Source: Oscillospiraceae bacterium (GTDB lineage: Bacteria > Bacillota > Clostridia > Oscillospirales > CAG-272). From it: a DNA stretch of 41,100 nucleotides. How positions within the stretch are numbered: the stretch's first letter is position 1; the number at the start of each line of letters is the position of its first letter. Of the stretch, positions 40,256 to 41,100 are shown one piece after another. The notes under the pieces are model-generated. The model was given only the letters and a program-made list of their open reading frames with translations, did not search any database and had not been told where the DNA came from. Where the stretch lies: positions 1 through 41,100 of the forward strand of contig SVTP01000021.1 of assembly GCA_015063725.1 (NCBI GenBank). The letters are read 5' to 3'. A program made the position numbers and the translations under genes.

Positions 40256-40696
40256 TCAATCGCCTTTCTCCTCTTTGCTATTGGTTTTTACTTCTTTGGT
40301 TGTAGATTCTCGTTTGAGAGCATTCTCTCGTGCGATAGCGTGTGCTTTTTCTTCCTTTTCCTCGGTGGTGATCTCCCAGTGAATGAGGATTGCAAGGATT
40401 GCACGCAAAATGATGATAATACCTAAAATCAAAAGCTCTTTGAGCTCTCGAACAATAACCGTGTTGACAATTTCGGCACCCATTTTGAATTCCAGTGCCA
40501 AGGAGAGGCTTCTACCCAATACAATAACGGCGTTTTGATGCTCGAGATTCTTATTCTTCAAGCGTTTTAAATAATGCAAGAGAACCTTGATAGATCCAAA
40601 AATAACAATGGATATACCAATGATTTCAAGCGTATGTACCGTTATTTTTGCAAGGATATGGAGCACTTGATCATAGATTTCCAAAAAACGATCCAT
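40256..40696 (-). CDS. DUF1622 small membrane protein
   Basis: This is a small integral membrane protein of the DUF1622 family, function unknown. The 146 residues hold two to three hydrophobic helices (about 17-38, then about 78-105 probably as a pair), a basic loop after the first helix (KRLKNKNLEHQNAVIVLGRS), and a highly charged C-terminal tail rich in Lys and Glu. Family-typical patches are LGRSLSLALEFKMGAEI and TVIVRELKELL. I place the start at ATG 40696, preceded by AGAAAGGAAAG; the ATG six codons earlier lacks a site. It stands alone between a 40714-40731 palindrome and a strong terminator. Confidence 0.82.
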   Translation of the reverse strand: MDRFLEIYDQVLHILAKITVHTLEIIGISIVIFGSIKVLLHYLKRLKNKNLEHQNAVIVLGRSLSLALEFKMGAEIVNTVIVRELKELLILGIIIILRAILAILIHWEITTEEKEEKAHAIARENALKRESTTKEVKTNSKEEKGD

Positions 40697-40713
40697 TTTC
40701 TTTCCTTTCTGCA

Positions 40714-40731
40714 ATATAACAGACGTTATAT
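40714..40731. promoter_or_regulatory. 18-bp palindrome upstream of DUF1622
   Basis: ATATAAC-AGAC-GTTATAT is a perfect 7-bp inverted repeat with a 4-bp centre, about 18 bp upstream of the DUF1622 start. It is the size of a typical dimeric repressor site, and could instead overlap a weak promoter (TATAAC on the minus strand). Confidence 0.45.
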
Positions 40732-40847: not shown

Positions 40848-40876
40848 AAAAAACCAAGTCTTGTGACTTGGTTTTG
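40848..40876 (-). terminator. Terminator of a unit entering from the right
   Basis: A perfect 11-bp stem AAAACCAAGTC / GACTTGGTTTT with a 4-nt loop is followed on the minus strand by TT, GAGGTTG and a seven-T run. No gene in the window ends here, so it would end a minus-strand transcript starting beyond position 41100 that runs through the hairpin array. The rest of 40740-40985 is AT-rich and holds no gene that I can support. Confidence 0.65.
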
Positions 40877-40988
40877 TTGCCTTAAACGAGTGAAAAAGGT
40901 GTCCAGACAAAGGAAAAAACGAACCAGAGATGTCTAATTCATATTTTAGAAAACAATTCAAGTGCTTTCCGCCATCTTGCATCCCAAT

Positions 40989-41092
40989 CACGCCGAAGGC
41001 GTGTATATCATCCGCAACTTGTTGCGGTATATCATCAATGCGAAGCATTGTATATCATCAAGCCGCAGGAGAGATACAGCCCCAAAGGGGCT
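40989..41092. repeat. Tandem hairpin array with constant 9-nt linker
   Basis: Three complete units and a broken one. Hairpins: CACGCC-GAA-GGCGTG (40989-41003), CCGCAA-CTTG-TTGCGG (41012-41027), CAATGC-GAA-GCATTG (41036-41050). Each is followed by the identical linker TATATCATC (41004-41012, 41028-41036, 41051-41059), with a period of 23-24 nt. A fourth unit begins AGCC-GCA-GG at 41062 but its arm is broken. A different hairpin, AGCCCC-AAA-GGGGCT, follows at 41078-41092. Stem sequences change while pairing is kept, so structure seems to be what is conserved. The array reaches the window edge and may continue. Confidence 0.85.
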
Positions 41093-41100
41093 GATGAGAT

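Follow-up and report, generated by a model that had tools for sequence, protein, structure and literature searches.

A hairpin array with fixed linkers behind tRNA genes, a candidate module of a mobile cassette with an IVP gene in gut Clostridia

What is a row of hairpins with differing stems and a constant linker doing at the very end of a contig from an Oscillospiraceae bacterium? The window, a stretch of 41,100 nt analysed here (contig SVTP01000021.1, hereafter C19), ends with hairpin 1 at 40989..41003 (CACGCC GAA GGCGTG, 6 bp), hairpin 2 at 41012..41027 (CCGCAAC TT GTTGCGG, 7 bp, loop TT) and hairpin 3 at 41036..41050 (CAATGC GAA GCATTG, 6 bp), with the sequence pattern TATATCATC (GATGATATA on the minus strand) at 41004..41012, 41028..41036 and 41051..41059; none of these features is assigned to a strand. 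A sequence-only reading had described three perfect 6-bp hairpins, each followed by a constant 9-nt linker at a 23-24 nt period, and this row is real and larger than first described. The stem length holds for hairpins 1 and 3, while hairpin 2 pairs over 7 bp around a loop of 2 nt; the linker starts at 41004, 41028 and 41051 give periods of 24 and 23, while the true linker is GTATATCATC. The GAA loops of hairpins 1 and 3 were found as described, and the GCGAAGC of hairpin 3 lies at 41040-41046. Further on, again without strand, come an unpaired half-hairpin AAGCCGCAGG at 41060..41069, the complement of part of the array's first hairpin on contig C18 (P1), the centre hairpin CAGCCCCAAAGGGGCTG at 41077..41093, and the start of a linker GATGAGATAC at 41093..41100, which is interrupted by the contig end.

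The window ends inside an array of about 200 nt and seven hairpins, and the element continues on C18 to about base 240 (L009). The last 122 nt of the window (40979-41100) are identical to C18 bases 2-123, and beyond this overlap C18 carries three further hairpins, whose linker is the reverse complement GATGATATAC, before a terminator and tRNA-Val(GAC) are reached. Within its own genome, a MAG that is 80% complete, the strict linker pair is confined to the C19/C18 site, and judging from these sequences the two contigs are therefore probably adjacent; base 40978 differs from C18 base 1, so the adjacency falls short of proof. Read from the tRNA, which is the direction of the window's minus strand, the order is tRNA, terminator, TATCC, hairpin 7 (CCAAGCCGCAGGCTTGG), CATATCATC, a hairpin, TATATCATC, a hairpin, GTATCTCATC and the centre hairpin, and then the unpaired half-hairpin CCTGCGGCTT, GATGATATAC, hairpin 3, GATGATATAC, hairpin 2, GATGATATAC, hairpin 1 as the last hairpin, GATT and the promoter region. 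The linker sets of the two halves are reverse complements of each other. Of the 38 elements having both, 25 show full 10-base complementarity between half-hairpin and hairpin 7, with three sequence pairs (20, 4 and 1 elements), and the remainder pair over 7-9 bases (n = 12) or 4 bases (n = 1), shifts of up to 3 being permitted in this count. The array folds far below its shuffles, both as RNA (-89.7 kcal/mol, z -7.2) and as DNA (-55.2 kcal/mol, z -9.1). Two loci, L352 and L369, carry a short sequence (TAGGGGTTCCCCGAAGCGAGC...) just 5′ of the first linker, inside the hairpin 7 loop, which might suggest another small element with hairpin loops as its target. In L382, from a related genome, the array has about nine units with linkers in one direction, the second half is absent and no tRNA is in view.

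Two linkers spaced 10-22 nt apart were found in 18 of 98 relatives (reversed control pattern, 0/98), and a looser pattern placed the array family in 16 of the 35 genus genomes (control, 0). Since copies occur in 16 of 35 genomes, the array is neither the local accident nor the simple sequence repeat that a lack of further copies would have indicated. Among named genomes, 41 of at least 117 stretches carry a unit whose stem is 5 bp or longer; among the matches listed (80 stretches) there are 27 such stretches, all from organisms that we take from their names to be Clostridia. Several other identities were tried and rejected. A phage origin of the window copy was dropped because a 228-base relative used as the query had no match in 50,697 phage records, and a viral source is unlikely, as 3 of at least 120 viral-contig stretches with the linker pair had a stem of at least 5 bp. 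No known Rfam RNA fits, with 0 matches over the gathering threshold in the window and the tRNA alone passing on L009 1-320. The neighbouring DUF1622 gene (40256..40714, minus strand; PF07784, E 6e-16) was rejected as a conserved partner, being present in 2 of 35 genus genomes, its own included, and it probably lies outside the element.

We found a partner by position, which the sequence-only reading had not proposed. The genes after several arrays belong to PF05635, 23S_rRNA_IVP (4/4 tested above the cut-off), a small four-helix protein of an Avd-like family with the structural relatives 2rld (E 1.8e-24) and 2gsc (E 0.08). PF05635 is present in 24 of 35 genus genomes and in 0 of 14 control genomes, with no match in the window's own genome at its 80% completeness. 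Among the 62 matches, 55 loci were fetched, and the 46 with at least 420 nt upstream were used, nine being dropped for a short upstream region. At least six perfect hairpins lie in the 400 nt upstream of 28 of the 46 IVP genes, whereas 0 of 53 other ORFs taken from these loci have as many (Fisher 8e-13). By eye, at least six of the remaining 18 loci (L494, L519, L520, L521, L523 and L525) also show an array, and others without the six-hairpin score have linker-only repeats such as TTCACTTTTCAC. A same-strand tRNA ends no more than 560 nt upstream of IVP in 30 of the 46 loci. Arrays with linkers other than those of the window family stand before IVP genes, and in L528 one array is nested within another. 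Within the window linker family, an IVP frame lies no more than 300 nt behind 6 of the 37 clusters that have at least 600 nt behind them (five loci, one of them broken), and array-only copies are the majority (31/37). By genome, IVP occurs in 12 of 16 array genomes and 12 of 19 others (p 0.49). Among the at least 117 named-genome loci, ten have an IVP match, and six of these have at least two linkers in the region from 700 nt before the frame to 60 nt inside it, the records JAFTSW010000058.1, JAFVXO010000003.1 and CAMCPL010000017.1 among them. A link of IVP genes to such arrays was not found in the titles and abstract openings of the open-licence PMC papers listed.

How does the window copy, which has no IVP gene, relate to these longer loci? 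On the minus strand, the array is followed by the 5′ part of an IVP promoter (TTGAAT ... TATGA) at 40939..40961, truncated within its -10 box, then by a first, diverged copy of a 3′ end motif (TTAGACATCTCTGGTTCGTTTTTTCC) at 40912..40938, a second copy (GACACCTTTTTCACTCGTTTAAGGCA) at 40878..40903, and, directly after the motif, a terminator-like hairpin (AAAACCAAGTC ACAA GACTTGGTTTT) at 40850..40875; hairpins follow the motif in other copies as well. The window's minus strand aligns with the IVP-bearing loci of G014, G003 (IVP broken) and G032 up to 40939, where the alignments end, and the match resumes at 40938 or 40937 to sequence 0.6-0.9 kb further downstream in the same three loci. These resumed matches are short (E 0.002, 2e-4 and 0.09), but against the 3′ ends of L514, L486 and L484 this part of the window scores E 3e-13 to 8e-9. 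The window copy keeps the array, a partial promoter and the 3′ end, and is without the promoter end, the IVP gene and the cargo. From these alignments, the most likely reading is a tRNA-side IVP cassette that has been emptied, and we infer that it arose by loss rather than that the longer copies arose by gain. The earlier suggestion of a mobile element end fits in that the array, which is repeated in relatives, resembles one end of such an element.

The strict pattern of the 3′ end had 8 matches in the 35 genomes (control, 0), and 30 of the 35 have none. The window's copy is one of two in its own genome, the second lying behind a tRNA-Tyr array. Among the eight, five show an array on their upstream side, that of L578 has an array directly behind it, and two (G008) have neither. 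In L581, a 3′ end-like sequence and a terminator come before an array, a broken IVP and a cargo lipoprotein, and these are followed by a 3′ end and the start of an array; units can stack, as in L581 and L578. By eye, similar lipoproteins and 3′ ends stand behind the IVP genes of another linker family (L484, L486), and cargo and 3′ end therefore seem to be shared between families.

We further asked whether linker type follows the protein. The IVP tree held 54 proteins (one of the 55 being too short), 45 labelled by linker and nine unlabelled, with labels that were devised after DNA and proteins were both known and assigned from the DNA alone. The linker label changes 16 times on this tree (minimum 12), against a shuffled mean of 33.3 with 0 of 200 shuffles as low, a count that is helped by close copies. 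Five of the 12 listed linker groups fit one branch and seven need two or three changes; L528 carries the label of its other, nested array. The window family's linker, with two labelled rows, gives no test alone (500/500 shuffles as low). Linker type tends to follow the IVP phylogeny, and this joint occurrence could come from shared inheritance alone.

Repeat flanks of IVP genes are also found beyond the genus. PF05635 matched in 24 of 119 phylum genomes (22 above the cut-off), and 30 of the 46 matches were examined, two of the 30 being dropped for broken frames; L550 and L562 are two copies from one genome. Inverted flanks (score at least 12) occur at 17 of these 28 IVP loci against 2 of 40 control ORFs. 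Period-7 repeats (at least 18/21, either side) occur at 9 of 28 against 2 of 40 (p 0.005), and on both sides at 3 of 28 against 1 of 40, and the periods 5, 6, 8 and 9 reach 18/21 at 0 of the 28 loci. Five loci chosen by eye as rRNA-like have the IVP gene inside LSU rRNA in 5/5 and are classical intervening sequences (IVSs), flanked by inverted short tandem repeats. Given these inverted, period-7 flanks, the hairpin arrays appear to be a more elaborate version of the IVP repeat flanks. In L483 and L487, IVP is flanked on both sides by inverted short repeats (ATGCAAA/TTTGCAT and GTGCAGA/TCTGCAC) without a hairpin array, possibly a minimal form of the element.

On balance, we think it somewhat probable that the array forms the structured 5′ part of a mobile cassette, which sits directly behind tRNA genes and whose IVP reads its own linkers. 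In the longest copies, the tRNA and a terminator hairpin are followed by the hairpin array with its complementary linker sets, then by a promoter, the IVP gene (PF05635) and cargo, with a tail of the 3′ end motif (two copies of about RGACACCTTTTRTYCG) and a terminator. The IVP ring protein would recognise the linkers of its own family in the folded array, whether RNA, single-stranded DNA or cruciform DNA, and would flag the element to be copied or joined at the terminators that follow tRNA genes, sites at which an insertion would do little harm. Linkers would stay fixed because recognition requires them, and stems would need pairing alone, so that their sequence could drift, aided by palindrome correction. 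Copies without IVP would rely on an IVP encoded elsewhere or on some other enzyme acting in trans, for which one candidate is a retron-like reverse transcriptase.

The alternative that survives best, though we hold it to be unlikely, is that the array is an operator or leader. IVP would then bind the linkers and so regulate its own promoter or a read-through RNA, and arrays that stand alone would be left over from lost IVP genes. A strong promoter was found at 21 of the 46 IVP loci, and in 12 of these 21, from several array families, the -35 box begins no more than 2 nt from a linker; the clustering of linker labels on the IVP tree would be explained as well. However, 25 of the 46 loci are without a strong promoter and would require read-through across the array, and relics of lost genes sit poorly with an array-only majority that keeps its pairing at many different tRNAs. 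The rare shared 3′ ends and the stacking of units would also be superfluous.

Reverse transcription, which the sequence-only reading had raised, fares less well. RVT_1 is present in 8 of the 35 genus genomes, the window's own among them, and is commoner in array genomes (7/16) than in others (1/19; Fisher p 0.013, one of three tests, uncorrected), an excess that the IVP cassette model does not predict. Five of the eight enzymes were typed: those of G000, G002, G004 and G024, the own-genome enzyme among them, are closest to an Ec107-like retron model, and that of G014 to group II introns. Stand-alone Ec107-like reverse transcriptases were observed in the own genome at C36:68961-69533 (L569) and at L568, L570 and L571, all four genomes being array-bearing. 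PF05635 has been described as resembling Avd of the diversity-generating retroelements (PMC10053308), and the commoner reverse transcriptases in array genomes extend that likeness. In contrast, the typed enzymes are retron-like or group II-like, and none adjoins an array of the searched linkers. Avd works together with a reverse transcriptase. An array RNA copied in trans by a retron-like or group II enzyme acting at a distance, with IVP as passenger or helper, could draw on all of this. However, RVT_1 had no match in 9 of the 16 array genomes, including the array-rich G019 and G029, the surroundings of the eight reverse transcriptases are free of arrays with the searched linkers out to 1.5 kb, and RVT_1 is not associated with IVP (5/24 IVP genomes, 3/11 others). 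The reverse transcriptase partner of the earlier suggestion was thus not rejected and might act at a distance; we regard a reverse-transcribed element as quite improbable.

Position behind tRNA genes speaks for the cassette and bears also on a third explanation. The distance test took in those 51 of 56 array clusters whose tRNA side extends over at least 150 nt; a tRNA 3′ end lies no more than 110 nt away in 29 of them, 27 at 52-65 nt, across many isoacceptors. The other 22 have no tRNA within 110 nt, and nine of these have one 150-350 nt off. About seven clusters (such as L348, L363 and L367) are oriented backwards in the counts, for which the tRNA-distance figures allow, and these have no IVP on either side. 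A tRNA-Thr/Tyr query matched in 35 of 35 genus genomes, in 30 over at least 90 bases, and the sequence beyond tRNA-Tyr is visible in 28 of these 30 loci. Across species, different array families, other sequence or nothing stands behind its terminator (by eye); the tRNA-Tyr arrays, also by eye, have linkers GTGAAATA, GATGAAATC, ATGATG, GTGATG, GTGATAT or ATGAAG in an identical layout, and in the pair L404/L408 the terminator stem is identical and the array different. Many tRNA sites are occupied, and one site (tRNA-Tyr) is re-used by other array families. Terminators with a recurring TTTGTCTACC loop accompany arrays of several families and the 3′ end motif (14 of 56 array clusters; 5′ of the arrays L009, L337 and L346, and 3′ of L578 and L580), and the terminator may therefore be part of the cassette. 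Among the loci compared, neither a clean empty site nor a target duplication was established. At several tRNA genes, what by eye resembles an inverted copy of the gene's own 3′ end stands behind the terminator, in the own-genome loci L436, L440 and L441 (tRNA-Gln, Trp, Gln) and the tRNA-Tyr loci L400, L406, L411, L415 and L418, often with a T-arm-like GGTTCAGA(G/T)TCCC further on; this may be a fold-back duplication or another type of element.

Arrays right behind tRNA terminators, on a constant side and with very stable folds, might serve the host by extra termination, insulation or absorption of supercoils. We consider such a host function likewise quite improbable, since array family and presence vary among species at the same tRNA-Tyr gene, since by eye (30/31 tRNA matches) the window's family stands in its own genome only at tRNA-Val and Tyr and Arg(CCG) bear another, and since arrays precede IVP genes also where no tRNA is in view.

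The stems themselves were compared in 57 fetched loci. Of the 91 distinct units, 67 pair over at least 5 bp and 76 over at least 4 bp, whereas 5′ halves joined to the 3′ half of a different unit reach these lengths in 5.5% and 10.6%, and the stems of at least 4 bp have 40 distinct 5′ arms. Stem sequences vary and pairing is retained, as the sequence-only reading had proposed, and identical stems in all copies are excluded. That reading had also attributed the variation to selection on folded structure or to a copying mechanism that diversifies stems; retained pairing and folds that beat shuffles bear out the structure, and these data do not separate selection from palindrome correction. What the stems show is pairing kept against sequence, compatible with either. 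A role of the array as single-stranded DNA is a possible one. The mostly perfect stems, and the own-genome tRNA genes that by eye seem to precede inverted copies of their own 3′ ends, could also be read as purely mutational, with hairpin-primed template switching behind terminators making and correcting palindromes without selection or any protein. However, identical linkers and position-specific stems recur across many loci, genera and families, which requires inheritance as a unit, and this explanation is very improbable.

The Y1-type transposase (PF01797) named by the earlier reading was rejected as a partner: it occurs in 6 of 35 genus genomes, only two of which have the array family (G014, and G006 below the cut-off), so that it does not go with the arrays. 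A REP-like miniature element mobilised by a Y1/RAYT transposase encoded elsewhere, which the small intergenic, multi-copy hairpins with a fixed flanking tag might recall, is hardly credible, as Y1_Tnp has no match in the own genome or in 29 of the 35 genus genomes overall, is found in 2 of 16 array genomes against 4 of 19 others, and the GTAG or CGTC tag is absent. REP/BIME-RAYT systems, as described in PMC3733652, likewise have short intergenic hairpins with a constant tag in many copies and stems that vary between families. The array differs from them in its constant linker GTATATCATC in place of GTAG/CGTC, in the lack of a matching Y1 transposase, in its ordered seven-hairpin layout behind tRNAs and in IVP as the positional partner; the earlier view that it is not of REP type stands. 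It is not a CRISPR either, as already suspected, since its variable parts are hairpins, many of them recurring, rather than unrelated spacers.

Among known systems, the rRNA IVS comes closest, but the window element is not a member, as it lies outside rRNA and has no IVP in its copy. IVSs are described as selfish elements, bordered by complementary sequences, that replace the loop at a hairpin (PMC4990558). The 23S rRNA IVSs share the S23/IVP protein family with the longer cassette copies, and inverted short tandem repeats flank the IVP loci inside LSU rRNA (5/5, chosen by eye). In contrast, the window element stands behind tRNA-Val, and its own genome is without S23/IVP, although some relatives in its linker family have it. 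Reverse-complementary linker sets are shared with the IVS borders, whereas the longer copies hold both sets on one side of the gene, the array repeats contain a hairpin per unit, and the cassette adds cargo and a separate 3′ end. With integron cassette arrays and tRNA-linked genomic islands, the cassette has in common its stacked units, cargo and tRNA site. Intergenic seven-base repeats of unknown origin are described in Beggiatoaceae (heptamer direct repeats, TAACTGA; PMC4679880), and the IVP flanks of the phylum likewise show a period of 7, and not 5, 6, 8 or 9. The available text of PMC4679880 makes no mention of four helix, 23S, S23 or intervening, and from the shared period we infer that those heptamers are linked to the repeats of IVP flanks.

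More tentatively, the mobile cassette with an IVP gene may represent a new class of mobile element in gut Clostridia, in which cassettes form tRNA-anchored chains, array ends are read by IVP in a clade-specific linker code, cargo is exchangeable and many copies are emptied, with the 23S rRNA IVSs as a reduced branch; we regard this as possible and rather doubtful as a whole. Structures of S23/IVP proteins have been solved, yet these have "no known function" (PMC4990558), and if this wider reading is true, an orphan family gains one. IVP clades that stand behind arrays with different fixed linkers are a testable partner, for which a binding test would be direct. The array context might also account for the short inverted repeats around IVP genes, both within rRNA and elsewhere, and the data point to a tRNA-side cassette system in gut Clostridia.
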